Source: an archaeon (GTDB taxonomy: Archaea; Nanobdellota; Nanobdellia; Woesearchaeales; GW2011-AR9). Taken from it: DNA of 64,000 nt. The stretch spans positions 62,001 to 126,000 of the forward strand of contig JAUYKZ010000009.1 of NCBI GenBank assembly GCA_030704845.1, read 5' to 3'. Under the pieces are notes generated by a model. That model made no database searches and was not told the origin of the DNA. It saw only the letters and a program-made list of their open reading frames with translations. The translations under genes were made by a program, and so were the position numbers. Below are positions 15,414 to 30,312 of this stretch, in pieces (position 1 is the first letter of the stretch; each line of letters opens with the position of its first letter).

Positions 15414-16382
15414 CTACGCTGCCAGTACTCCACGAAGGCAGATATTACTATAGATGCCGTAATCAACTGCGCCGAAGCTAATGTTGTACAACCAGGACGC
15501 CCGCCCAATTGCTCCTCGAGAAGCATATTCTCTTACATAATCTAAATTCAAAACGAAAGTTCTTGTTGTAGACCACTGTTTAGCTAACATAGACATGACC
15601 TCATAAAATTTATCCTTTCCATAAACGCGGCGAATTAATCTTCTCTGATCATCATTAAGAGAATCTAGTTCAGGATTTTCAGTAGATAATTCTAAATAAG
15701 GATTCGCCTCTGAGTTTCTATTCAGAGACAATTTAGATAAATCAAAAACTTCCGTTTCAGGATCGGCGAGAGCGGACTCTAAATCTTCCTCTGGCAAACG
15801 ATAATTTCTTGTTTCTCTAAATTGCTTATATGCTTCGTCAGGATTTTTTAACAAAGGATTGCTTCTTTCTCTCGTCAGAGCAAAATAAGGTTTGCGGTCA
15901 CGCATGAAATAAATTGCTCCATCGGCAGTATCAAACCCCATCTCTCTCAGTTCATGAAGAACCAACCGATCCTCCCATAATTTATCAACGTGTCTTCTTG
16001 TGCCAGGAACTAACTTGGAAAATGCTCGATAATCTCCTTGAATAGTCTCAATAAATCGAATGAAAGGGTTCCATTTAACCAATTCAGTTCTCTGTTTATC
16101 ATTACCATTAAAATCAACATCGTGAGGAAGACCATGATACCAATCAAGAACACGTGAAACGCCTTTTTTTTTCAGATCTTCTTCTACATCATTCCGGGCT
16201 TGTTCTCTAGCTTTCATTAAAGCAGAATAATTATTCCCTTCAAGATGACTTGGTGAGAAAAATAAACGATGTTCTATGTTAATCAGAGCTCTTAAAGGGC
16301 CTTGAAGATGGTCAGAATACACAAGCCACGAATCCCAATCGTTAGGATTCTTTTTCAAGTCCCGAACAATATTATCAGTCAT
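15414..16382 (-). CDS. Hypothetical protein with TIGR02996-like N-terminal segment
   Basis: N-term IVRDLKKNPNDWDSWLVYSDHLQGPLRALINIE resembles the TIGR02996 repeat-companion domain; begins at the edge of the 97-bp repeat. Confidence 0.6.
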   Translation of the reverse strand: MTDNIVRDLKKNPNDWDSWLVYSDHLQGPLRALINIEHRLFFSPSHLEGNNYSALMKAREQARNDVEEDLKKKGVSRVLDWYHGLPHDVDFNGNDKQRTELVKWNPFIRFIETIQGDYRAFSKLVPGTRRHVDKLWEDRLVLHELREMGFDTADGAIYFMRDRKPYFALTRERSNPLLKNPDEAYKQFRETRNYRLPEEDLESALADPETEVFDLSKLSLNRNSEANPYLELSTENPELDSLNDDQRRLIRRVYGKDKFYEVMSMLAKQWSTTRTFVLNLDYVREYASRGAIGRASWLYNISFGAVDYGIYSNICLRGVLAA

Positions 16383-16478
16383 TTTATACTAAAGTGCCAA
16401 AGCTTTCGAACTTATTTTTGGCACTTTATATATATAAAATGCGTTAATATATTCGAAATCTAACGCATTTTAGTATAA
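16382..16478 (-). repeat. 97-bp two-hairpin repeat, copy A
   Basis: Exact reverse complement of 28493-28589; internal stems AAAGTGCCAAA/TTTGGCACTTT and AAAATGCGTTA/TAACGCATTTT, ends TTATACT/AGTATAA. Confidence 0.97.
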
Positions 16479-16546
16479 ACAGTAAACCAGAAAACCACCC
16501 AAAACATCTAATTATTAACCTTATTTAAAAAACTTAGTGAAACATT

Positions 16547-16789
16547 TCATTTCTCTGCAACACGATTAACAGTAGATTCTAAACCAGTATGAACCTTGCG
16601 CACATCTCCTTCGTGGCCAGATCCATGAAAATTTGCTTCAAACCAATTTTCTTCTCCACATCCGGAACAATCTTGAGATTTGTAATGCTTGCCCCAACTC
16701 CAGATAGATTTCCAACTTTCTTCATCAAGTGAATGAGAACAATATGTGCATTGAAAATCCTTTAAATGCGAAGGTAAATTATTCATCAA
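16547..16789 (-). CDS. Small zinc-ribbon-like protein
   Basis: CTYC...CSGC cysteine pairs. Confidence 0.6.
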   Translation of the reverse strand: MMNNLPSHLKDFQCTYCSHSLDEESWKSIWSWGKHYKSQDCSGCGEENWFEANFHGSGHEGDVRKVHTGLESTVNRVAEK

Positions 16790-16843
16790 TTGCTCAAAAA
16801 TCTAAGGAAAGTTTAAATACGTTACGCTTCTGGAATTCAGACA

Positions 16844-17722
16844 ATGAAATATCTTTTCACAAATGTCATTGGACGATTCATCATTGATGATAACGGCAGT
16901 ATCACTAAAGATAGTGCCCCACAGAAAACTCAATTGAAGGAATTGCCAACAGAAAAAATCAATCTGGCACTTGAAGCATTTAAAGATAAAAAGTATTTCG
17001 CTTCTTTTTCTGAAAAGAATAAAGAGATTACTAAGAAAGCCATTAAAGATTCAGTTAATGAAGACAACTTAATCACTCAAACCATCAGCAATATTACAGA
17101 ACTAGACCGAGCAGGTAATCTTTTAGTTAAAAGATTAAGAGAATGGTACGGGTTATATTTCCCAGAATTGTCAGAAAGAATTCAATCTCACGAATCATTC
17201 GTTGAAGTGATTTTAGCTAAATCAAAAACAGAACTGACAAAAGAGTTTTCTGTAGAAAATTTAATGGGTGCTGATTTAAGTAAAGCCGATGTTGATGAGA
17301 TGTTACTCTTAGCAACCCAAGTTAAAGCATTATATGAAGTAAGAAAACAGCATGAGATTTATTTAGAGGGAATAATGAAAAACTATTGTCCAAATATTCT
17401 TGAATTAGCTGGAGTGACTGTCGGAGCAAAATTACTTGAGTTAGGTAAAAGTTTGAAACATTTAGCAATGCTTCCAGCATCAACGATCCAATTATTAGGG
17501 GCTGAGAAAGCTCTTTTCAGACATTTGAAAACTGGGAGTAGAAGTCCAAAATATGGCGTTGTTTTCCAACACCAATTAATTCAAAATGCACCAAAAAAGA
17601 TTCGAGGGAAAGCTGCAAGAATGCTTGCTGACAAATTATCTTTATGTGCAAGGTTGGATTATTTCAAAGGAGAATTTAAAGCACCAGAATATAGAAAAAT
17701 ATTAGAAGAGAAAATCAAATGA
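16844..17722 (+). CDS. nop5: Nop5/Nop56-like C/D RNP core protein
   Basis: LLVKRLREWYGLYFPEL; LGAEKALFRHLKTGSRSPKYGVVFQHQLIQNAPKKIRGKAARMLADKL. Confidence 0.95.
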   Translation: MKYLFTNVIGRFIIDDNGSITKDSAPQKTQLKELPTEKINLALEAFKDKKYFASFSEKNKEITKKAIKDSVNEDNLITQTISNITELDRAGNLLVKRLREWYGLYFPELSERIQSHESFVEVILAKSKTELTKEFSVENLMGADLSKADVDEMLLLATQVKALYEVRKQHEIYLEGIMKNYCPNILELAGVTVGAKLLELGKSLKHLAMLPASTIQLLGAEKALFRHLKTGSRSPKYGVVFQHQLIQNAPKKIRGKAARMLADKLSLCARLDYFKGEFKAPEYRKILEEKIK

Positions 17723-18228
17723 AAGAAATTGAAGTGAAAATTTTGGAAGTAGATACAGCTGAGATAGAAAGAAAATTGTTACAGCTAGGCGCAGAAAAAA
17801 CTTTCTCAGGAAAAATTGAAGCTACCTTGTTTGATCATCCCGAATTAAAATTACGTGATAATGATAAAGTTCTCCGCGTGAGAACTGTTGGAGACAAAGT
17901 GGAATTATGTTTCAAAGGCAAGAAAGAAGGAAAACAATTCAAAATCAGAGAAGAAATTGAAGTGGAAACTAGCAATGTTTCTGACACATTACAAATTTTA
18001 AGATCTCTCGGATTCGTTGAAACATTTACAAATAATAAAGAAAGGATTTCTTACAAACTAGGAAATACCAAAATTGAATTTGATACCATCGCAGGTATAC
18101 CGACCTTCCTTGAAATTGAAGGAGTTACCGAACAAGATGTGATGGATTGTGTAGACAAATTAGGATATAGCATGGACGAGACAACCATCATCTCTGCAAA
18201 CGAATTAATGGAGCGTTATAAATCATGA
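17719..18228 (+). CDS. CYTH domain protein (CyaB/ThTPase-like)
   Basis: N-terminal EIEVKILEVD (ExExK), FDTIAGIPTFLEIEG. Confidence 0.88.
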   Translation: MKEIEVKILEVDTAEIERKLLQLGAEKTFSGKIEATLFDHPELKLRDNDKVLRVRTVGDKVELCFKGKKEGKQFKIREEIEVETSNVSDTLQILRSLGFVETFTNNKERISYKLGNTKIEFDTIAGIPTFLEIEGVTEQDVMDCVDKLGYSMDETTIISANELMERYKS

Positions 18229-18896
18229 GTTCAGAAATTAAATCACATAAAATCTTTGAAGTATACGAAGATAGAAAAAGATTATACACCCGTAACATGA
18301 TTAGAGGTAAAGCTCCTTTCGCTGAGAGATTAGTTAAAGAAAAAGGAATTGAATACAGAGAATTCGATCCCAGAAGAAGTAAATTAGCTGCAACCATCAT
18401 GAAAGGATGTACAAATGCGGGGATTAGAAAAGGGGATGTTATTCTTTATTTGGGAGTAAGCCACGGATATACTTCATCTTTTGTATCAGACATAGTTGGT
18501 GAAGAAGGATTGATTTTTGGAATTGATCCGGCTCCAAGAGTTATGCGTGATTTAATGTTCTTAGCTGAAGATAGAAAAAATATTGTTCCGATTTTAGCTA
18601 ATGCTAATAAACCAGAAGAATATCTTAATAGAGTTTGTAAAGCAGATATTGTTTATCAAGATATTGCCCAGAAAAATCAATCCGAGATTTTTATCAAGAA
18701 TTGTAATCTTTTCTTAAAAAGTGGTGGATATGGATTATTGGCTGTAAAGGCTAGAAGTATCGATGTTAAAAGAAAACCTAAAGATCTCTTTGTTGAAATT
18801 AGAAATCAGTTAGACAAACTTTTTACCGTAATTGATTACAAGATCCTAGACCCATTCGAGAAAGATCATTGCATGATCATCGTAAAGAAAAAGTGA
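18225..18896 (+). CDS. flpA: Fibrillarin-like rRNA/tRNA 2'-O-methyltransferase
   Basis: YEDRKRLYTRNMIRG...GDVILYLGVSHGYTSSFVSDIVG...ADIVYQDIAQ...YGLLAVKARSID. Confidence 0.96.
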   Translation: MSSEIKSHKIFEVYEDRKRLYTRNMIRGKAPFAERLVKEKGIEYREFDPRRSKLAATIMKGCTNAGIRKGDVILYLGVSHGYTSSFVSDIVGEEGLIFGIDPAPRVMRDLMFLAEDRKNIVPILANANKPEEYLNRVCKADIVYQDIAQKNQSEIFIKNCNLFLKSGGYGLLAVKARSIDVKRKPKDLFVEIRNQLDKLFTVIDYKILDPFEKDHCMIIVKKK

Positions 18897-18941
18897 TCAA
18901 TCAGTAACCCTTATAAGTCTCTTCAACTTTTCTTTCATCAG

Positions 18942-19979
18942 ATGAAAAAAGAAATGCCGGTAGATATAATCAGAATTAAAGTTAAAGATCTTAAACCGTA
19001 CAAGAAAACTTCTAAAGGCTGGGTAAAAATTAAGAAGGATTTTAAATCAATACAAGATGTTGTCAAACTTTACAAAGCTGAATCTAACCTTAATCTTTTG
19101 ATTGACAATAAAAACCCACAATTTCTTAAAGGAGCCATATTAGGAAATAAAGAACTCGGTGAAAGAATTGTTCTTCTTCCAAACGGAGAAAAATTAGAAA
19201 AAGCCTTCTCACTTTTTTCTGAAGGTCTTACCTTACATGATCAAAAATCACACGATCATTGGGATGTGATTTACAAGAATAAGGGGGGAACATGGTCATA
19301 TGTGTACACTCTTCAGAAAAGAAAAGAGCATCGGGATAATAAATATAGGAAAGTACATGAATTTGAGAAAAGATATCCCCAATTACTTGCTAAAGTAACT
19401 AAAAGTCTATCTGATAAAAATGATTCTATGGCTTTGCCAATGTACACTTTATTGAGGACATATATGCGTATCGGCAATGAGACTTATTTTAAAGCTCACA
19501 ACCATCAAGGATTGACAACCCTCACAAAGAAAAATGTTTCCGTCAAAGGCAATAATGTCAGTTTTAATTTCATTGGTAAAGATGGCGTGCCGATTACAAT
19601 CATTAAACGTTTTCCAGAAAGTTATGTTAAAAGATTAAAAGAATCTCTTAAAGAAAAACAGCCTTACCTTTTTTCAAAAAATGGTTCGTCATTACATGAG
19701 CACCATTTCAAAGAAGCTTTTGTGAGATATTGTGGAAAAGAGTTTTATCCACACATCGTAAGATCGCATCACGCAACAATTAAAGTTAAAGAATTTCTTT
19801 CCAAAAGAAAAAAAACTACTAAAAACGAAGTAGAAAATCTTTTCATGGGGATTGCTCACGATTTAGGACATAAAAAATTTAACAAAAAGAAAGGATTATG
19901 GGAAGAACATTATGCTGTTACCGTGAATAGTTATATCCAACCAGAGTTAGTAGAAAAAGTTCAAAGTCGAATAAAATAA
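18942..19979 (+). CDS. Type IB DNA topoisomerase
   Basis: LLRTYMRIGNETYFKAHNHQGLTTLTKKNVSVKGNNVSFNFIGKDG; PHIVRSHHAT (HxxR); C-terminal HYAVTVNSYIQPELV with candidate catalytic Tyr. Confidence 0.88.
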   Translation: MKKEMPVDIIRIKVKDLKPYKKTSKGWVKIKKDFKSIQDVVKLYKAESNLNLLIDNKNPQFLKGAILGNKELGERIVLLPNGEKLEKAFSLFSEGLTLHDQKSHDHWDVIYKNKGGTWSYVYTLQKRKEHRDNKYRKVHEFEKRYPQLLAKVTKSLSDKNDSMALPMYTLLRTYMRIGNETYFKAHNHQGLTTLTKKNVSVKGNNVSFNFIGKDGVPITIIKRFPESYVKRLKESLKEKQPYLFSKNGSSLHEHHFKEAFVRYCGKEFYPHIVRSHHATIKVKEFLSKRKKTTKNEVENLFMGIAHDLGHKKFNKKKGLWEEHYAVTVNSYIQPELVEKVQSRIK

Positions 19980-19988
19980 TAAGAATAT

Positions 19989-20120
19989 TTAGAATAAAGA
20001 AATAAGCTTGTTAAACCGGCGATCAAATTCTTTGCTGTGTTTATCATATTCATGTATTGCTTCATCAAAGCGAAGTTTACCTTCTTCTAAAAGCATACGA
20101 ATATCCTCTCTTTTCTTCAT
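19989..20120 (-). CDS. Small charged 43-aa protein
   Basis: MKKREDIRMLLEEGKLRFDEAIHEYDKHSKEFDRRFNKLISLF; ATGA overlap with stop of the upstream gene. Confidence 0.45.
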   Translation of the reverse strand: MKKREDIRMLLEEGKLRFDEAIHEYDKHSKEFDRRFNKLISLF

Positions 20121-20572
20121 CTGTCCACCTCTTTCTTTGATTTAATTGAAGCATCGGTATTATTTAAATGTTCCGAAATAGATACCATTGTTCGAGTAAA
20201 CTCTTTTTTAGCCTGTTTTAGAGAGGAATCCAAAGCTTCTTTATCAGAGCGTAAATTTATTACTTCATCTTCCAATAGTTTAATTCTAGAATTCATTAAT
20301 TGTTTATGAACACTAAAGGTTGTGATTACAATCAAGGCAAAAATTGACACTACAAAAGCGAGTTGAGTCACGTTGTTGATAATATAAGTAAACCAAATAA
20401 GAACGGCTTGTTCGGCGGTATATATCACAATAAATAATATCTCAAACAAACTACGATTATAGAACGCAAAATTTCGAAGATTTTTCCAAAAATATTGTAG
20501 TTCATTAAATAGCGTACCATGCCATGAGATCATAAATACACACCAAAGAATCTTGTTTTTAATCACTTCCAT
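20117..20572 (-). CDS. Hypothetical membrane protein with C-terminal coiled coil
   Basis: TM segments followed by LLEDEVINLRSDKEALDSSLKQAKKEF. Confidence 0.6.
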   Translation of the reverse strand: MEVIKNKILWCVFMISWHGTLFNELQYFWKNLRNFAFYNRSLFEILFIVIYTAEQAVLIWFTYIINNVTQLAFVVSIFALIVITTFSVHKQLMNSRIKLLEDEVINLRSDKEALDSSLKQAKKEFTRTMVSISEHLNNTDASIKSKKEVDR

Positions 20573-20609
20573 GGAAAAGAATATATATCGAAGTTCACTA
20601 TTAACCTAA

Positions 20610-20888
20610 ATGAACATCTCAAAAGAAGCAGCTTATTTGTATCTTTATTCTAAGGAATTAGTATCAATAAACAAACAACTTGAAAAGTATAGTCATAAAG
20701 CTGAGAAACATAAACGGAAACATGAAACTGCTACGGAGAAAAATAAAGAGAAACATAGGAAAAAGCATGATGCTGCTTTGTCTAAGTTGAGAAGTCTAAC
20801 TAAAAAGCATGATTTACTGATTAATAAGATTCATCATCATTTTCAGAATTTTCATCTAGGAATTAATAAACAACATAAATTGAAGTGA
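20610..20888 (+). CDS. Small Lys/His-rich coiled-coil protein
   Basis: 92-aa ORF, KYSHKAEKHKRKHETATEKNKEKHRKKHD. Confidence 0.55.
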   Translation: MNISKEAAYLYLYSKELVSINKQLEKYSHKAEKHKRKHETATEKNKEKHRKKHDAALSKLRSLTKKHDLLINKIHHHFQNFHLGINKQHKLK

Positions 20889-20892
20889 ATTA

Positions 20893-21663
20893 CTAATCTT
20901 CTTTTCTCTTTACCATCAATAACGAAGATTCATAGGGAATATTAATCGGTTCTTTTCGGGATTGCAACAATAGTTCTACTTCATTAAGTAAGTCATCTAT
21001 TTTATCTGCGGTGAGACTGTTAACCCAGGATAATGATTTAACTAAGTTCAAATATCTCTCTGAGGTGAATTTCTCATTCCAAATATAATCCACTTTTTGA
21101 TAGATTTCAAATAAGCCGGATCTTTCTATTCTATCTTCAATCGACTTCGTATCCTGTTGCGGGATATATTTTAGACAATTACCAATAAACAGTTGTTCTA
21201 ATTCTTGTAGAAATTCAGATATTTCATAGATTTCAAAATTCCAAAACAAGGCTAAAGAGCCACCTTTTTTTAACAATCTATCAGCTACATTATAACTTTT
21301 ATCTGGGTCAACCCAATGCCAAGCTTGAGCCGAGATAATAAGATCAAATGATTTATCGGGGAAACTATTTTCTTCAAAAGAACCAACCACATATTTAACT
21401 TCCGGAAAATCATAAGTCTTTTTTTCTGCTATTCTTAACAAATTTTCACTAATGTCTAAACCAGTAATATCATACCCTCTACCACCAAATAGAACTGTTG
21501 CTTTGCCTGAACCACAACCAACATCCAAGATTTCATCACCTTTTTTTATTTTAGACAAAGCTAAAACATCATTGATTAACACCGTAGGATAACTTGGACG
21601 AGAAGAATCATACAACTCGCTTACTTTACCAAAAGTGTTTTTTAAAGATCTATCTAATCCCAT
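20893..21663 (-). CDS. Class I SAM-dependent methyltransferase
   Basis: ILDVGCGSGKATVLFGGRGYDITGLDIS. Confidence 0.9.
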   Translation of the reverse strand: MGLDRSLKNTFGKVSELYDSSRPSYPTVLINDVLALSKIKKGDEILDVGCGSGKATVLFGGRGYDITGLDISENLLRIAEKKTYDFPEVKYVVGSFEENSFPDKSFDLIISAQAWHWVDPDKSYNVADRLLKKGGSLALFWNFEIYEISEFLQELEQLFIGNCLKYIPQQDTKSIEDRIERSGLFEIYQKVDYIWNEKFTSERYLNLVKSLSWVNSLTADKIDDLLNEVELLLQSRKEPINIPYESSLLMVKRKED

Positions 21664-21667
21664 TTAT

Positions 21668-21910
21668 TCACTCTTCATCCACATCTTTCACATGGATAAT
21701 ATTTACTGGACAAACATCTGAAGCTTCTTGATTTTCTTCAATGTCCTTCTCGTTTTCAATATCTAGGCGCCAATGATCGCCTTCTTCATGAGCTCCTTTC
21801 AATTGAGCCATACCTTCCGCATCCAACTCCCAAAATTTAGGAGAAACTGCGGCACATGCTCCACAGCTAATGCAATCTTTTTTGAGGTGAATTACTTTTT
21901 TTGGAGTCAT
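21668..21910 (-). CDS. Ferredoxin
   Basis: CISCGACAAVSPKFWEL ... CPVNII. Confidence 0.9.
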   Translation of the reverse strand: MTPKKVIHLKKDCISCGACAAVSPKFWELDAEGMAQLKGAHEEGDHWRLDIENEKDIEENQEASDVCPVNIIHVKDVDEE

Positions 21911-22057
21911 TTTGTGAAAAGTATCACCGTCATTTATAATACTTTTTGAATTGTGTTCGTTTTGTAAAAGACCAAATCACAAAATTTGGAAGGAAGAAAA
22001 TATTTCTGTGTTGAGTAATAGATATCTTTATAATTATCTGTCTTTTATTTTAGAATA

Positions 22058-22291
22058 ATGACAAAGACCATTGAAAGTTTAGAAGAACGCTTAGGAAGAT
22101 CGATAAGTCTTTTAGAACAGAACTACATTACTTGGAGAAATTCTGGAAGAGAACATCACATTTATGTTATCTGGAACGATATTTATGGTGACAGAAAACT
22201 CTGCGAAGAACTTCAAGAAATTTATAGGGCGTATCAAGAAATTCAAAAAGACCAGAAATCAGAAGATTCATCATCAGATTACCATATATAA
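22058..22291 (+). CDS. Hypothetical protein
   Basis: 77-aa ORF in a gap between divergent genes. Confidence 0.45.
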   Translation: MTKTIESLEERLGRSISLLEQNYITWRNSGREHHIYVIWNDIYGDRKLCEELQEIYRAYQEIQKDQKSEDSSSDYHI

Positions 22292-22329
22292 ACAAAAAGC
22301 TTATATACCGTTTTTCATTCATTTGTGAT

Positions 22330-23283
22330 ATGAAAAAGAGTTGGATGGTGTTTGCTTTACTTTTTACGATAGTATTTCTAATTACTTCCTGTTCCGGACA
22401 AGTTGCATCTGGAGAGAATGCTAGAGATACTGAAGCTATCTTAAAACAAGTTCAATCAGGCACCCAAGGAGTTACAATGACCTTCTTGCAGGATTTGCCA
22501 CCTGCGGTTGTTTATGATCAAAACGAACTGTTATCAATCGTAGAAGTAAAAAATAAAGGAAATCATGATCTTGGAGCTCAAGATTGTTTTATTCAAATTA
22601 CCGGTTTTGATCCAAATATTATCAGTCCTGTCTTTGGAGTAGCTAGATCTTGCGCTGAAAGCTTGGGAACTTTAGAAGGTAAATCCGTATTCAATACTGA
22701 TGGTGGATTTAATCAATTAGAATTTTCTTCAACCAACATTATTCTTCCAGATGGAATATTAGAATATAATCCTAATCTTAACTTTGTAACTTGTTATAAT
22801 TACGTTACAAGAGCTAATCCTCAAGTATGCATCGATACGGCATTACATCAAGTAACAGCTGAACAGAAAACTTGTGCAGTCAAAGATATTGGTATGAGCG
22901 GAGGACAAGGAGCACCAGTTTCAGTAAGTAAAGTAACTGTAGAAATGGCTGGTACGCAAGCTATCTTTGGAATAGATATCGTTAATAATGGAAATGGAAG
23001 AATTCTTCATCCCCAAACAGATATCCAATCATGTGCCCAAGCAACTCAGTTAACTCACCGAGATCTTGACAAAATTGAGTTTACAGTTTCCCTACCTGGT
23101 GCTGCGGTAAATTGTAATCCTACTTCCGGGATTGTTTCCTTGAATAATGGTGTAGGTAAAATTATTTGTAAAGCTGAGATGGGAATTTCTCCTGCTTTTG
23201 AAACCCCATTACAGATTATTCTGAATTATAATTACATCCAATCTATGCAAAAGAAGATTAAAATTATTAGCACCCCAAGGTAA
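22330..23283 (+). CDS. Predicted lipoprotein (paralog 1)
   Basis: Signal peptide with lipobox-like LITSC; shares GTQGV and CARF-like extracellular pattern with next gene. Confidence 0.7.
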   Translation: MKKSWMVFALLFTIVFLITSCSGQVASGENARDTEAILKQVQSGTQGVTMTFLQDLPPAVVYDQNELLSIVEVKNKGNHDLGAQDCFIQITGFDPNIISPVFGVARSCAESLGTLEGKSVFNTDGGFNQLEFSSTNIILPDGILEYNPNLNFVTCYNYVTRANPQVCIDTALHQVTAEQKTCAVKDIGMSGGQGAPVSVSKVTVEMAGTQAIFGIDIVNNGNGRILHPQTDIQSCAQATQLTHRDLDKIEFTVSLPGAAVNCNPTSGIVSLNNGVGKIICKAEMGISPAFETPLQIILNYNYIQSMQKKIKIISTPR

Positions 23284-23337
23284 ACTTTAAATATCTTAAG
23301 AGATTTTGTGTTCTTAGAACGAAAAAGAGGCGTGACT

Positions 23338-24240
23338 ATGAGATTTCAAAAACTAATAATAATTTCCTTGATGATAGGTGTATTTTTACTAACTGCGTGT
23401 TCTCCTAGAGCTGATAATTCAACTCAGAAAGGAGCTTTTATTGGAGGAACTCAAGGAGTTCTTGCAGAATTTGAAGCATTTGGGCCGGAAGAGAATGGAT
23501 TATATACCATTTTCGAAACAGAATCTTTCCCAATAGAAATCAGATTGAGTAATAAAGGAGAATATGATTTACAACCAAATGATATTACTGTAACTTTAGA
23601 AGGTCTTTCTCAAAACGAATTTGGTGGGATCCCTGCTCTTTCCTTAAGCAATGATGGAATTGTTGATAAAGTTTCAGAATTAGCTCCAACTGGCGGAGAG
23701 GAAACCGTTTCATTTTCTCAAGATGTTGAATATACCGCTGATGTTATTGGTTTTATTGATAGAAAAATCTTTGCAAATTTAGATTACAAATATCAAACAA
23801 CAGTTATCGTACCAGAAGTTTGCCTTAAACAAGATCTTACCGATACCAGAATATGTGATGTTGCTGAAGCAAAAAGTTTCTCAGTTTCTGGAGCTCCAGT
23901 AACCGTAACTAGTGTTGAAGAAGAAAGTGCAGGAAGAGGAATTGTAGCATTACGATTTAAAATTAAAAATGTTGGCGGCGGAAAAGTTACCATTCTTGGA
24001 CAAGAATTTAGTGCAACTGCTGACCAATTAGGATTCTCTTTAGATGACCCTGCTTGGGAATGTAAAGCTGCTGGTAGAGTAAACGAAGCTAGACTTCGTG
24101 ATGGCGAAACAGAAGTTGTTTGCCGTTTAACAGAAGCACTTTCAGACAAATTCCTTCAAGTAAAACAAGTTAAATTAGTTGTAGATTACACTTACCGAGA
24201 TTTAATACAACAAACTTTAAGGATCCGAGAAAGTTCTTAA
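23338..24240 (+). CDS. Predicted lipoprotein (paralog 2)
   Basis: MRFQKLIIISLMIGVFLLTAC lipobox-like N-terminus; start placed at the internal MRF. Confidence 0.7.
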   Translation: MRFQKLIIISLMIGVFLLTACSPRADNSTQKGAFIGGTQGVLAEFEAFGPEENGLYTIFETESFPIEIRLSNKGEYDLQPNDITVTLEGLSQNEFGGIPALSLSNDGIVDKVSELAPTGGEETVSFSQDVEYTADVIGFIDRKIFANLDYKYQTTVIVPEVCLKQDLTDTRICDVAEAKSFSVSGAPVTVTSVEEESAGRGIVALRFKIKNVGGGKVTILGQEFSATADQLGFSLDDPAWECKAAGRVNEARLRDGETEVVCRLTEALSDKFLQVKQVKLVVDYTYRDLIQQTLRIRESS

Positions 24241-24281
24241 TTAGAACGACATTTTATTTTTTTTTACTTTTTCTATATTTT

Positions 24282-25301
24282 TTATACTTTTTGACCAACT
24301 AAAACTACAAACGCCAGAAAACTTTCCAATTGCACATATTCATCTGAACCTTCCACCATTCTAAATTCAACCTCACCACATTTATCAACCAATTGAACTT
24401 TCCTTTGATCATCTAATGAAATATTCCAAATCTCTTTCTGGATTTGTTTAATGACATCTAAACCAGATAACCCATATTGTAACATAATATCAAGAAGTTT
24501 CTTTCTAGAACTCAAGAAATCACCTTTAGCGGCATAACTTAATACTTCATTAATCTCTTTTGGTTTGGCTACTGAAGCCATGGAATAAATATCTTCCGGA
24601 GTAAGAGAAATACCTTCCTTCTTTATAGCAAAACAACTTTGCATAACATTAGTTAATCTTCTACAATCTCCGCCACTTACTTCAAAAAGAGCATCTTTAA
24701 CTTCTGGAGAATTTGATTGACTTAAATCACTGCCTTCCTTTTTTATTATTTCATTGATTACTTCATTAATTTCCTCTTTTGATAACGGTTTAAATCTAAA
24801 TACAGCACATCTACTTTGGATAGGATCCAGAATTTTAGAAGAATAATTACAACTTAAAATAAATCGACAAGTTCGAGTATAATTCTCCATTGTCCTTCTC
24901 AAAGCTTGCTGGGCCTCTTTAGTAAGAGCATCACTTTCATCAAGGTAAATCAATTTGAATGGTACGTCGCCGATAGCTTTGGTTCTGGCAAAATCTTTTA
25001 CTTTAACTCTGATAACATCAATGCCCCTCTCATCAGAAGCATTTAATTCAAGAACATTCGCTCGCCAATTTTCTCCAAATAATTCTTTAGCAATTACTAA
25101 AGCTAATGTGGTTTTACCAACTCCGGCTGGACCACTAAATAAAAGATGAGGCATATTTCCAGATTTTACGAACGCTTCAACTTTCTCAACGATATCTTTC
25201 TGTCCACGTACTTCCGAGAAAGAAGTTGGCCTGTACTTTTCGGTCCAAATTGATGAAGTCATAATAGTTCTTTTATGAGAGTATTTTATAAGCTTTATCA
25301 C
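24282..25301 (-). CDS. rfcS: Replication factor C small subunit
   Basis: WTEKYRPTSFSEVRGQKDIVEKVEAFV; LLFSGPAGVGKTTLA; ELNASDERGIDVIR. Confidence 0.97.
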   Translation of the reverse strand: MIKLIKYSHKRTIMTSSIWTEKYRPTSFSEVRGQKDIVEKVEAFVKSGNMPHLLFSGPAGVGKTTLALVIAKELFGENWRANVLELNASDERGIDVIRVKVKDFARTKAIGDVPFKLIYLDESDALTKEAQQALRRTMENYTRTCRFILSCNYSSKILDPIQSRCAVFRFKPLSKEEINEVINEIIKKEGSDLSQSNSPEVKDALFEVSGGDCRRLTNVMQSCFAIKKEGISLTPEDIYSMASVAKPKEINEVLSYAAKGDFLSSRKKLLDIMLQYGLSGLDVIKQIQKEIWNISLDDQRKVQLVDKCGEVEFRMVEGSDEYVQLESFLAFVVLVGQKV

Positions 25302-25336
25302 TCTAAATAATAGATGTTAATACTCTTAGGATACCC

Positions 25337-25528
25337 TTAGAATATCCATAACAAGATTGCTACTCCCCAATCTATCGCATCTTTCCAAGTTATACCAAAA
25401 AATAAGATGAGAAGAAAGACCATAAATAATGTTCCAACGGCAAGTTTAACAAATGAAAGAAAGAAATGACTGATTAAATAAGCAACAATAATAGCCAAGA
25501 TGATTGTTGCAAACGTTACTAAAGCCAT
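25337..25528 (-). CDS. Small membrane protein
   Basis: 63-aa hydrophobic ORF. Confidence 0.45.
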   Translation of the reverse strand: MALVTFATIILAIIVAYLISHFFLSFVKLAVGTLFMVFLLILFFGITWKDAIDWGVAILLWIF

Positions 25529-25601
25529 ATAACCAGAAAGTAATTGGATTATTTAATAATTTCTAATATTCAGACTTCATCAAGAAAATATTTCTGGGGT
25601 G

Positions 25602-25988
25602 TTAATAGAAACTCGCTTTAACTAACCACCCGCCAAGGATAATCATCAAGATTAGTAATCCGTTTATTAATAATGATTTATCCTTGAAAAGTTTTATTGT
25701 TTTTCTGGTGAAATTAGGAGATCCTAATCTTACTATCCCTTTAGCGAGAGATAACCAACCAAAAATAGTCACAATCACCCGCCAATCTAAGGCCCACAAG
25801 TTATGTAGAATTAAGGTAATTAATCCTACAATCAACGACATGAAACCGGTTATTAACATAAAGGAATTATCTTTAGACATTATGAAAATATCTTTAAGAA
25901 GTTTCTTTCTAATAAGAAAAATTAATCCAAGAATTAATAAAAACAGTCCCCAAAATCTAGCCAATAATATTGAAATATCCGTTACCAT
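25602..25988 (-). CDS. Membrane protein
   Basis: Four hydrophobic segments. Confidence 0.55.
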   Translation of the reverse strand: MVTDISILLARFWGLFLLILGLIFLIRKKLLKDIFIMSKDNSFMLITGFMSLIVGLITLILHNLWALDWRVIVTIFGWLSLAKGIVRLGSPNFTRKTIKLFKDKSLLINGLLILMIILGGWLVKASFY

Positions 25989-25990
25989 TT

Positions 25991-27232
25991 TTAAACATTA
26001 TACGGCATTTTTATCTTCCTTTTTGCCAAGAATATTCTTAATGAACTGAAGATTATGGTCATAGTAATTACTACATAAGTCACTTTAGCAATAAGATCTG
26101 CTTGAGGAACAGCAAGTTCGATTGCCAATTGAGCAATTGCAGCTGCGGCTAAGCCTCTCGCAAACATGCTGTTTACAATAATTCTTTCTTGAGGTTTAAA
26201 GTGTGAAGACAAGAGCATTGAAGAAACTCTTGTAACCATTAAAATTGCCGAGATTACAACCCCAATAATAAGAGCTTTCCAGTCAGATAAATCAATTAAA
26301 ATTCCAATAAAAACGAAAAAGAATGTTTTAAGGAGGAAAGAAATTTTGTCATAAAAATCTTGTTCTGAAGGAGAGGTTACAGAAACTCCCAATTCTCCTT
26401 GCAATGCTTTCTTTTTATCATTAGCGGCGTGGGTGGTTATTCCTTTGATGATTGAAGATAACTGCTTTGAATTCTTTAACATTAATCCAAAGAATAAAGC
26501 AGCGATTGCTCCATTACCACTAAGAAATTCTGTTAAGACATAAATTAAGATTAAATAAGCTACAGTCATGATATAATTATGTTCCTTGAAAACATGATGA
26601 ATTAAAATCATCCAAAAAATTCCGCCTAGAATTCCTACCAGACCAGCTACGGCAAAAAGTGAAACTATTTGATTAGCTATCCCTATAAATCCAAACTGTC
26701 CAGCATTAATAACTTTAATAACAGTTAATGAAAAAACAATACAAAATACATCCGTTAGAGCCGATTCTAGAGCTAAGAGAGAATAGAGATTTTCTTTAAC
26801 TTTCATCTGTTGTAGAACAGGGATTACAAAAGCTGAAGAAACTCCACCCAATAAAAAGCCAGTCAATAAAGAGGTTAAGAAAGAACTTCCACTAAGAACC
26901 ATTACACCTGTTATCACCGCGGCAGATATAATAAAATTAAACATCGTTAAAATAAAACTTGCAGAAAACTCTCTAATTAAAGATGATAAATTGATGTTAA
27001 ATGCCCCGTCAAATAATAAGAATAAAAGAGTAAACGTGGTAAATATTGGAGCAACAGTCGATAAACTATCAAGAGTTACATAACCTAAAACATTTGGACC
27101 AAGAATGAATCCTATTACAATTAATAGAAGAATGTCTGGTAAACCAAATCTTTTGAAAATAAATTCAGCAAAGAAGCCGAAAAATAGTACCAAGCTTAAT
27201 CCAAGAAGGATTAGAGTTACAACATCTGCCAA
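25991..27232 (-). CDS. Cation/proton antiporter (CPA family)
   Basis: Multi-TM; LPDILLLIVIGFILGPNVLGY; SSAFVIPVLQQMKVKENLYSLLALESALTDVFCIV. Confidence 0.88.
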   Translation of the reverse strand: MADVVTLILLGLSLVLFFGFFAEFIFKRFGLPDILLLIVIGFILGPNVLGYVTLDSLSTVAPIFTTFTLLFLLFDGAFNINLSSLIREFSASFILTMFNFIISAAVITGVMVLSGSSFLTSLLTGFLLGGVSSAFVIPVLQQMKVKENLYSLLALESALTDVFCIVFSLTVIKVINAGQFGFIGIANQIVSLFAVAGLVGILGGIFWMILIHHVFKEHNYIMTVAYLILIYVLTEFLSGNGAIAALFFGLMLKNSKQLSSIIKGITTHAANDKKKALQGELGVSVTSPSEQDFYDKISFLLKTFFFVFIGILIDLSDWKALIIGVVISAILMVTRVSSMLLSSHFKPQERIIVNSMFARGLAAAAIAQLAIELAVPQADLIAKVTYVVITMTIIFSSLRIFLAKRKIKMPYNV

Positions 27233-27337
27233 AACATATCACCATCTTCATAGATACTAAAATATTTAGTTACCTACAATTTACTTTAGAAAGAAAGATT
27301 AGTTTAAATATATTTCGTCAAGATGAGATTTGAAGAA

Positions 27338-27433
27338 TTATGCAGCAACATTGAAAAAGTCTTCAACTTCTTCCATGTCACCTTGCAAATATTGATAATT
27401 TAATAAATGTTTAAAATGTTTTTGATAATTCAT
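27338..27433 (-). CDS. Possible 31-aa microprotein coupled to the PRC-barrel gene
   Basis: MNYQKHFKHLLNYQYLQGDMEEVEDFFNVAA; ATGA overlap with upstream stop. Confidence 0.3.
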   Translation of the reverse strand: MNYQKHFKHLLNYQYLQGDMEEVEDFFNVAA

Positions 27434-27705
27434 TCTTCTCCGTCCTCTGCTCCACTGCCACTTGGAATTGCGTTACGAGAGATTATAAGAATATCTCCTA
27501 CTGCACGAACAAGTTGATGTGGAACAATAACTCCTTTAGCACTACCTAACACTCTGCTTAAGAATGATGCTTTTGTTGCTCTGATTTTCCAGCCAGAAAC
27601 CTTATTTGAAGTAACGATACTGTCTTCAACATCACCAAAATAATCACCTGCATCTGTAAATACTTTTAAATCATACGTTTCCGAAACCTTCTTCATTTTT
27701 AGCAT
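27430..27705 (-). CDS. PRC-barrel domain protein
   Basis: DLKVFTDAGDYFGDVEDSIV...GVIVPHQLVRAVGDILIIS. Confidence 0.75.
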   Translation of the reverse strand: MLKMKKVSETYDLKVFTDAGDYFGDVEDSIVTSNKVSGWKIRATKASFLSRVLGSAKGVIVPHQLVRAVGDILIISRNAIPSGSGAEDGEE

Positions 27706-27775
27706 AGAGAATCACCTCACCCGAAAGATTCGAATTCGAGTAGGTTTAAATAGTTTTCTCTTTTGAAGAGATAAC

Positions 27776-28462
27776 ATGACGCTAGAAATCATTGGAACCT
27801 CCCATATTGCAGAACAGAGTATACGAGAGATTAAAAATGCTATTCTTACAAAAAAACCGGATATCGTAGCGGTAGAACTGGATACACAAAGAGTTGCTGC
27901 TTTGCTTAGCGGAGAACAAAACAGGATTACGTTTAGTAGCGCTTTCACTATCGGGATCAAAGGATATTTATTTGCAAAAATTGCCCAATTTGTACAGCAA
28001 AAGCTAGGAAAAACGGTAGGAGTAATGCCGGGAAGTGAAATGAAAGCAGCCATTGAATTAGCTAGGAAAGAAGAAATTCAAATTGCTCTTATTGATCAAC
28101 CAATTGCTGTAACTCTTAAAAATTTTTCTAAAGAATTTACTTGGAGAGAACGGTTTAGATTTGTGGGAGAAATTCTGGGCGGAATCTTTATGCCTAGAAG
28201 ACAAATCAAGAAATTGGGATTAGAATCTATTGATCTAAGTAAGGTTCCTACTGGCGAGATTGTTGAAAAGATGATGGATCAAATGAAAAGAAGATATCCA
28301 TCAGTGTACAAAACTATTGTTGAGGATAGGAATAAGTTCATGGTAAGAAAGTTAGTCAGAATTATGAGAGAACATCCCGAGAAAAATATTCTAGCTATCG
28401 TTGGAGCCGGCCATAAGAAGGGTATGGAAGAATTGTTATTGAAAGTGGATGTTGTACGGTAG
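27776..28462 (+). CDS. TraB/PrgY-family protein
   Basis: IIGTSHIAEQSIREI...PDIVAVELDTQRVAAL; IVGAGHKKGME. Confidence 0.88.
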   Translation: MTLEIIGTSHIAEQSIREIKNAILTKKPDIVAVELDTQRVAALLSGEQNRITFSSAFTIGIKGYLFAKIAQFVQQKLGKTVGVMPGSEMKAAIELARKEEIQIALIDQPIAVTLKNFSKEFTWRERFRFVGEILGGIFMPRRQIKKLGLESIDLSKVPTGEIVEKMMDQMKRRYPSVYKTIVEDRNKFMVRKLVRIMREHPEKNILAIVGAGHKKGMEELLLKVDVVR

Positions 28463-28492
28463 AAATAGATATATTAACCGAGGTTATTATAA

Positions 28493-28589
28493 TTATACTA
28501 AAATGCGTTAGATTTCGAATATATTAACGCATTTTATATATATAAAGTGCCAAAAATAAGTTCGAAAGCTTTGGCACTTTAGTATAAAA
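28493..28589 (+). repeat. 97-bp two-hairpin repeat, copy B
   Basis: Exact reverse complement of 16382-16478. Confidence 0.97.
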
Positions 28590-28601
28590 GGAGGCGATAA
28601 T

Positions 28602-28910
28602 ATGAGCAAAGATGTTAAAGAAATATTTTTTGATGAAGTGTTACGAAGTTTTTTTTATAGAAAAACTAATGAACGATATGATGGAACTAGAGTAACAGTG
28701 ATTAAATCAAAAACGACGCCAAATAGTTTTTCTTCGAGAATAGAAGCTGAAGATAGAGCTTTAGATTCATTACTTAGAGACCATGAAGAATTAAATGTTG
28801 ATGCGTTTGAAATAGTTTCTTCAGGTGCACATGATTCTAGACAGGAATATGATTCTACCCCTTTTCAAGGATATGTCTCAGCAATATTCTACAGCCGCGA
28901 ACAAAAATAA
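28602..28910 (+). CDS. Hypothetical protein, tandem paralog 1
   Basis: MSKDVKEIFFDEVLRSFFYRKTNERYDGTRV; GGAGG RBS; directly downstream of repeat B. Confidence 0.65.
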   Translation: MSKDVKEIFFDEVLRSFFYRKTNERYDGTRVTVIKSKTTPNSFSSRIEAEDRALDSLLRDHEELNVDAFEIVSSGAHDSRQEYDSTPFQGYVSAIFYSREQK

Positions 28911-28914
28911 GTTC

Positions 28915-29268
28915 ATGGTAAAAGAAGTAAGAGAGATCATATTCGATGAAACTAGAAATGGACTTATTTATAAAAACTCTAAAGAACCATATTCTGGAAA
29001 TCGGATCTCAGGGATTATAACTAAAACCAGTCCAGAAGGATATTACTCCCAAACAGAAGCAAGAGATAATACATTAGAGTCACTTTTAGAAGAAAATGAA
29101 AATCTCGGTGCCGATGCATATGAGATAGTCCATTCTAATCCGATTGGCTCTTGGCAAGATTTTTGTGCTGTTTATGTAAGTCCAGATCAAAATATATATC
29201 GAGCACAAGTAGCAGTAATATTCTACGGCAAAAAAGATCAGGAAAAACCGTTAAGTTTAAATACCTGA
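28915..29268 (+). CDS. Hypothetical protein, tandem paralog 2
   Basis: Likely start MVKEVREIIFDETRNGLIYKNSKEPYSGNRI, aligns with previous gene end to end. Confidence 0.6.
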   Translation: MVKEVREIIFDETRNGLIYKNSKEPYSGNRISGIITKTSPEGYYSQTEARDNTLESLLEENENLGADAYEIVHSNPIGSWQDFCAVYVSPDQNIYRAQVAVIFYGKKDQEKPLSLNT

Positions 29269-29270
29269 TA

Positions 29271-29688
29271 GTGCCCAAATAATTTGGCAGTAGTGGCAGG
29301 GAGCTTACGGTGTTTACACTGAGGAAAGTCCGCCCACCCAAGAAAAGGTCACTTCCAGAAGGAAGACGGAGAAATCCCGTGGCTCTGGTTTAGACACGAC
29401 ACGTCCTGCAGACATGGGAATGATGAGACATCCAGTAACAAAAGTTCATAACAAACTTTTGGAACAGAAAATCAGGATAAATAATATCATTGATTTTCTT
29501 GTAATGGCGAAGCGTGTTGAAAAGCACGCGAGTTAAGTCTTTGACGCCTCTGCAGGGACCGATGAAACGACGAATTCCCTGATCGGTGCAAGTCAGTATG
29601 ACGCTTAGTAGAATGCTCCAACAGACTATCGACAAGCAACGCTTGTTTTGGGTCTGACAGAAGGCGGCTTATGTCACTCTGCCAACTT
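29271..29688 (+). ncRNA. rnpB: RNase P RNA
   Basis: Conserved 5' GGCAGGGAGCTTACGGTG...GAGGAAAGTCC and 3' ACAGAAGGCGGCTTAT; terminal TTGGCAG/CTGCCAA pairing. Ends approximate. Confidence 0.95.
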
Positions 29689-29697
29689 TTTAAAAAA

Positions 29698-30312
29698 ATG
29701 TCAATAGCAATTCCTACTGAAAGAGAAATTCTAAAATGGTTTCTTCATACAGCTGTACATACTTACCATATTGAATATTATCTTCAACAATTCCAGATCG
29801 GTTCTGAAGATCCAGACAGACCACACGATATTGTCCATGATGGAAACAAGTTTGAATGGGAAGCAGTTAAAGGATTGGCCTTACAATTTAAGGAAAACGA
29901 AACAGAAGATTTCTCTGAAGAAATTAAAAGATCATTAGAATTCCATCGACAGCAATACCATCACCAAAAATGGAATCAGTATTATCCAAACGCTACTGAA
30001 GATGCAATGAGAGTAGGGGCTGTCGACACAGTATGTTCACTTCTTGAACCTAGAACTTATCAAGGTGGTTGCCATACTTTTGATCAAATTAGGAGACGTG
30101 CGAGTAAAAATCCTATCCATAAAATTGCCTGGATGAAACTTGCTGTCGTCGAGATGGAGCATATCACAAAACCAAACCTCGATGAGATTACTTCATTCTC
30201 AAAAATACCAAAAGAAGGTATTAGCGCAGAAACGCATGATACTATCCTCGACAGAGTTTATGAGGGGTTGAAAGTATTAGAAAAAGATTGGGGATATAAA
30301 TTTAAAGTATAG
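29698..30312 (+). CDS. Hypothetical His-rich protein, possibly HD-like or DUF5662-like
   Basis: MSIAIPTEREILKWFLHTAVHTYHIEYY...EFHRQQYHHQKWNQYYPNATEDAMRVGAVDTVCSLL; start moved to 29698 so it does not overlap rnpB. Confidence 0.6.
   Translation: MSIAIPTEREILKWFLHTAVHTYHIEYYLQQFQIGSEDPDRPHDIVHDGNKFEWEAVKGLALQFKENETEDFSEEIKRSLEFHRQQYHHQKWNQYYPNATEDAMRVGAVDTVCSLLEPRTYQGGCHTFDQIRRRASKNPIHKIAWMKLAVVEMEHITKPNLDEITSFSKIPKEGISAETHDTILDRVYEGLKVLEKDWGYKFKV

Follow-up and report, generated by a model that had tools for sequence, protein, structure and literature searches.

A probable MITE-like element with two hairpin ends and TA insertion sites in Woesearchaeota

The window, by which we mean the whole 64-kb stretch of DNA that was analyzed, belongs to a 1.0-Mb Woesearchaeota genome (97% complete, 24 contigs) and carries a repeat pair, 16382-16478 and 28493-28589, whose members match exactly as reverse complements. 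A sequence-only reading had described this 97-bp inverted pair, with two stems of 11 bp, a TTCGAA in each hairpin loop, and TATACT/AGTATA ends around a central TATATATA, and each of these features was recovered in both copies. Comparison across the copies in the genome sets the unvarying unit at 93 bp, TATACT...AGTATA, and the outer T's and A of the 97-mer are chance flank (Table 1). No confident match to Pfam, NCBIfam, or PADLOC was obtained for the neighboring proteins (15414-16382, 28602-28910, and 29671-30312), and a search of Rfam over 16200-28800 matched no described RNA family. Copy 2 is followed by two overlapping same-strand ORFs of 102 and 147 aa (28602-29268), possibly a frameshift or two small genes, and the AGGAGG before 28602 is a good ribosome-binding site.

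Table 1. Features of the two repeat copies in the window
Feature	Coordinates	Strand	Basis or remark
Family A element copy 1, TATACT...AGTATA, 93 bp	16385-16477	+	Boundaries are the part invariant among copies
Putative mobile part of copy 1, TACT...AGTA	16387-16475	+	Inferred
Copy 1, left TA of putative target-site duplication	16385-16386	.	Junction arithmetic, nested copies
Copy 1, right TA of putative target-site duplication	16476-16477	.	Nested copies
Copy 1 hairpin 1, 5' arm AAAGTGCCAAA	16391-16401	+	
Copy 1 loop 1, contains conserved motif TTTCGAAC	16402-16416	+	
Copy 1 hairpin 1, 3' arm TTTGGCACTTT	16417-16427	+	
Copy 1 TA-rich center, (TA)4	16429-16436	.	Place of B insertion in other copies
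Copy 1 hairpin 2, 5' arm AAAATGCGTTA	16436-16446	+	
Copy 1 loop 2, loop-1 motif on opposite strand (ATTCGAAAT)	16447-16460	+	
Copy 1 hairpin 2, 3' arm TAACGCATTTT	16461-16471	+	
Family A element copy 2, identical to copy 1, opposite orientation	28494-28586	-	
Putative mobile part of copy 2	28496-28584	-	Inferred
Copy 2 hairpin 2 (AAAATGCGTTA ... TAACGCATTTT)	28500-28535	-	
Copy 2 hairpin 1 (AAAGTGCCAAA ... TTTGGCACTTT)	28544-28580	-	

Across all elements the general plan is TATAC, a hairpin, a TA-rich center, a second hairpin, and GTATA, within 91 to 96 bp, and 100 of the 101 elements scanned fall in that length range (the structural scanner returned one coding false positive, L147). Each end comprises TATACTAAA, a stem, a loop with (T)TTCGAAC, the returning stem, and TTTTATATA/TTTTGTATA. 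This foot and the TTCGAAC-like loop are conserved between elements, while the stem sequence is variable yet paired. As in a MITE, both ends carry a terminal inverted repeat, TATACTAAA(G/A)TGC, and the outer 9 bases show 89 to 100% fold-back pairing in 73 elements.

Searching the genome with the 97-mer, a check suggested by the sequence-only reading, located about 41 distinct copies and part-copies of the sequence, which we call family A; the window copies, presented there as a pair, are two of these places. Full-length or nearly full-length copies account for 28 of them, most 98 to 100% identical and a few 92 to 97%, and the remainder are interrupted by a contig end or by a second inserted element. 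Copies differ chiefly in how many TA units the center contains and in single stem changes. The central units range from 4 to about 8 between copies, in the manner of a microsatellite (L037:4910-5010 and L044:2004-2100). The element found within interrupted A copies defines family B, another 93-bp unit (TATACT-hairpin-GTATATAC-hairpin-AGTATA) with an identical plan and no sequence match to A; it has 23 hits in the genome, 17 of them at 100% over the full length. A third family, C, is common to other genera (L114, L116, L146, and L171). One A copy (L051) bears a different second hairpin, so the halves of the element are exchangeable. The repeat is thus short, non-coding, multi-copy, and dispersed, as a MITE should be (93 bp; about 41 A and 23 B hits). 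Roughly a dozen contig ends lie inside A or B copies, indicating that the repeat breaks the assembly at those points. An assembly artefact was considered for the repeat itself and ruled out, given about 40 different flanks on most contigs.

Nested copies reveal the target. B copies occur within A at the center (L052), within A loop 2 at different TA sites (L023, L045, L047, and L050), beside an A end (L051), and also at the center of a family C copy (L184), and intact A copies serve as empty sites for the nests of B in A. Adding the TA units to the left of CT to those to the right of AG gives, for every nest, the intact number plus three (n + 3), irrespective of which side has more units, which amounts to the element plus one extra TA. 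This count agrees with placement of a TACT...AGTA unit at a single TA, with TA then flanking it on either side; such a TA duplication is indistinguishable from insertion of an element carrying one extra TA. In a relative, G070, a related element splits a reading frame, and joining the flanks with one TA gives an unbroken Ser_hydrolase match (PF06821, E = 1.5e-13). Filled and empty sites with TA on both sides, as in a MITE target-site duplication, are found for B in A, B in C, and the Ser_hydrolase gene. The sequence-only reading had proposed comparing empty sites in relatives, and element L212 of G065 is missing at the matching place in its congener and sister species G024, but the spacer around that empty site is poorly alignable, and the junction is only loosely aligned. 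Filled and empty sites together show that the element moves. Comparison of copies shows mobility, a TA target, the two-hairpin plan, a fixed length, and recent bursts in this genome. The many copies, the nests, and the empty sites support a MITE-like non-autonomous element, one of the readings offered at the outset.

The roughly 34 insertions in this genome that lie away from contig ends are all between genes, with none in a clear ORF; the sole overlap is that of one B copy with a doubtful 79-aa frame. Since only 15% of the TA sites in the window are intergenic and 85% are coding, insertions in genes are evidently avoided or purged. The G070 case shows that insertion in a gene can occur, and copies seem to be tolerated chiefly in intergenic DNA. 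The sequence-only reading had placed both window copies at gene starts in a shared orientation. Both do abut a gene start, but copies occur between divergent, tandem, and convergent gene pairs and near both 3' and 5' ends, so that neither placement at a gene start nor the shared orientation toward the next gene is a general rule across the genome. Flanks within 40 bp include more gene 3' ends (about 19) than 5' ends (about 11), which fails to support a portable promoter or operator as the general function. That the element is a portable promoter, an operator, or a structured RNA under selection for gene control seems to us highly improbable. The central TATATATA could serve as an archaeal TATA box, next to the gene starts that both window copies abut; however, copies are found equally between convergent genes and directly after stop codons, nothing in Rfam matches, and copy numbers range from 0 to 25 among congeners.

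We asked how the element folds. As DNA, the element strand forms two adjacent hairpins (-19.8 kcal/mol, z = -6.5 versus shuffles), and as RNA the same strand forms a single long fold-back (-29.9, z = -7.2 versus shuffles); two alternative folds exist because the two ends are mutual inverted copies at foot and loop while their stems differ. Ungapped clustering below 70% identity produced 26 groups, one of them a coding false positive, and two adjacent hairpins are the minimum-energy DNA fold in 23 of the remaining 25. In the end-hairpin alignment, 95.8% of stem cells are paired, 6 of 10 pairs have changed on both sides, and the stem covariation score is 0.489, compared to 0.151 for shuffled and at most 0.156 for slid controls. 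The 112 distinct hairpins include 81 distinct stems, with 1331 Watson-Crick, 32 G-T, 20 A-C, and 24 other pairs; the 32:20 ratio of GT to AC wobbles does not clearly mark either strand as the one that folds. That a hairpin forms during movement is suggested by stem covariation, the fixed length, and the conserved loop, and the two ends are probably equivalent. The chief caveat to the hairpin step is template switching between arms (quasi-palindrome correction), which can keep palindromic stems perfect without selection and could also flip loops. Given this alternative source of stem pairing, covariation is no proof that the hairpin is recognized. The loop change from TCGAAC to TCGTAC can hit both ends of one element (L086), and loop-flip variants found inside otherwise identical elements (L101, L143, and L159) are compatible with template switching too.

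Elements built on this plan, with diverged sequences, are widespread in the family. BLAST with the 97-mer matched 8 of 61 genomes, the source genome included. A covariance model (R1) for one of the end hairpins, built from 12 sequences, detected ends at E <= 1 in 30 of the 118 relatives; G030, G062, G065, G070, and G074 gave 13 to 25 hits each. Counts swing within genera, from 19 in G062 to 0 in G016 and from 25 in G070 to 0 in both G023 and G064, where zero means "not detected" at the sensitivity of this one model. A pattern scan of GTDB genomes returned 77 loci, all in Woesearchaeota, Nanoarchaeota, or Pacearchaeota records and most from two genomes, JAGVYH (RIFCSPHIGHO2_02_FULL_33_21) and JACQSP. 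IMG/VR, searched with two patterns for viral carriage of the element, gave zero hits.

We consider it likely that the repeat is a non-autonomous, MITE-like element with two head-to-head hairpin ends that inserts at TA and is moved in trans. Each copy would be about 89 bp (TACT...AGTA) placed at a TA dinucleotide, leaving TA on both sides, and each end consists of the invariant foot (TATACTAAA), a variable but paired stem, and the conserved TTTCGAAC-like loop. A trans-acting enzyme would most likely recognize the foot, hairpin, and loop of both ends, the hairpin presumably being present in single-stranded DNA or as a cruciform while the enzyme acts; it would cut at TA/TACT and reinsert the unit at a new TA. 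The predicted junction of an excised circle is AGTATATACT.

The sequence-only reading had suggested seeking a transposase or recombinase with matching TTATACT ends, and neither such a mover nor an autonomous copy of the element was found; the families tested were absent or had other ends. No hairpin ends were present near recombinase, DDE_Tnp_1, or Y1 genes where these were checked, and a scan of element-bearing loci totaling 554 kb for single hairpin ends on either side of an ORF yielded solo hairpins, arrays, and nests only. Neither of the enzymes tested across element-bearing genomes (Y1 and Resolvase) is present throughout them. The mover could lie in the remaining 3% of the genome, could have been lost recently, or could fall outside the families tested. 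The one DDE_Tnp_1 insertion sequence found in the source genome is degenerate and contains a stop codon (L222:1376-2309; contig C8, near 4144). Its gene (C8:4144; IS4/IS5-type) was rejected as the mover, being broken and having perfect 14-bp ends, GGCTCTGTCCAGAA, unrelated to the element.

RUP, Correia, and ERIC elements have TA termini, a TA duplication, A+T-rich sequence, a length of ~100 bp, and inverted ends (PMC2229807). The woesearchaeal elements resemble them (Correia also being called NEMIS) in all of these respects and in being gene-free, and could accordingly be ordinary TA-target MITEs of an IS630/Tc1-mariner transposase, in which only the terminal ~13 bp, with the inverted repeat TATACTAAA(A/G)TGC, would matter and the inner palindromes would be by-products. 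However, where RUP, Correia, and ERIC form one long stem, each end here is its own hairpin with a conserved loop 17 to 26 bp inside, a feature dispensable to such MITEs, and RUP's IS630-type partner is missing. The IS630-type DDE_3 catalytic domain was not found in the source genome and occurred in only 1 of 16 element-bearing genomes searched. We regard this origin as unlikely.

REPINs of Pseudomonas and other bacteria are inverted palindrome pairs with fold-back or two-hairpin forms, compensatory stem changes, and RAYT transposases, and their intergenic spread and solo remnants have been described (PMC3116915). The present elements likewise combine two inverted palindromic ends in one foldable mobile unit of ~100 bp, with fold-back or two-hairpin ("clover") forms, compensatory stem changes, intergenic positions, solo remnants, and clusters. 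Their movement might thus depend on a Y1 tyrosine transposase (RAYT/TnpA-REP or IS200/IS605) that works on hairpins in single-stranded DNA, and Y1 (PF01797) occurs in 8 of 15 element-bearing genomes. Even so, the elements are archaeal, with a conserved loop and a TATACT foot in place of the GTAG (or CGTC) tag, and they have TA on both sides of a TA target, a duplication that a REPIN-type element would not be expected to make. Furthermore, the source genome, 97% complete, has no Y1 despite its near-identical copies, and the Y1 loci of relatives, where examined, had no hairpin end, in contrast to the repeat-flanked Y1 genes of REPIN/RAYT systems. Non-autonomous elements derived from IS200/IS605 have a hairpin near each end, asymmetric non-inverted ends, and no target duplication. 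The present elements share the hairpin close to either end and differ in their inverted ends, in TA on both sides, and in a source genome without Y1. We consider a REPIN-type origin quite doubtful.

The only full-length mobile-type enzyme in the source genome, among the families tested, is a 260-aa serine recombinase that has Resolvase and Recombinase domains and is CcrB-like according to NCBIfam (L183:4935-5717, contig C21). In two or more genera its gene converges on a PAC2 gene (also L174 and L175). The idea of a site-specific recombination site, raised in the sequence-only reading, is retained only in the form that a TA-core recombinase could move the element. Exchange at a 2-bp TA core by this resident enzyme would leave TA on both sides, as observed, and the PAC2-neighbor arrangement recurs in G024 and G065. 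Resolvase was found in 10 of 15 element-bearing genomes, and strong hits within the family occurred in 12 of 22 element-bearing genomes compared to 6 of about 30 others (p about 0.017, from approximate counts uncorrected for kinship). Conversely, the recombinase is missing from the element-rich G030, G070, G019, G118, and G119, as well as from G009 and G026, which look complete, and no hairpin end lies near its gene; the PAC2-linked recombinase looks vertically kept. We find it improbable that this enzyme is the mover. A broader and speculative alternative, to which we give a minor share of our belief, is that the elements form a family-wide archaeal superfamily recognized through the shape of hairpin and loop, not through stem sequence. 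A host enzyme resident in the genome and of a class not known to act on such elements, such as the PAC2-linked serine recombinase, would then move them, and no autonomous element would exist.

In anatomy, the MITE-like elements described here are closest to REPINs and to the CIR repeats of Caulobacter. CIR (CerM-associated intergenic) repeats, known from Caulobacter and Brucella, have two arms, a linker, and 5'-TA-3' termini, with GANTC in the loop and, according to a review, no terminal inverted repeats (PMC2229807). Hairpin arms with a linker, TA termini, a loop-exposed motif, and intergenic positions are common to both. In contrast to CIR repeats, the loop motif here is TTCGAAC-like, the ends are inverted repeats, and mobility is shown by nested insertions. 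No such elements from DPANN archaea were described in the literature searched, which was covered in part. Despite the very small genomes of Woesearchaeota, dozens of these elements are present in some species, and they account for contig breaks in such assemblies. Many sequence families on one fixed plan, natural nests, and congeners with and without copies make it testable what moves a shape-defined, gene-free element.

Several related repeats were encountered in the same records. In JAGVYH, hairpins occur alone, in arrays, and in nests with small repeats unrelated to them. That genome also has a separate mobile repeat, longer and with GCCGAAAAC...GTTTTCGG arms, into which hairpin elements have often inserted (L107, L111, L134, and L164). 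Contig C15 of G062 (L203:684-869) contains a host element whose center is occupied by another 93-bp unit with two hairpins; the loop of this unit differs and its ends are of the TAGA...TCTA type, making it a further family built on the same plan. Lastly, a Pacearchaeota-binned contig (JAUYJY010000011.1; L096:7504-7644) ends with an exact A+B nest identical to that of the source genome, which may reflect a mis-binned contig of the same species or horizontal transfer of family A.
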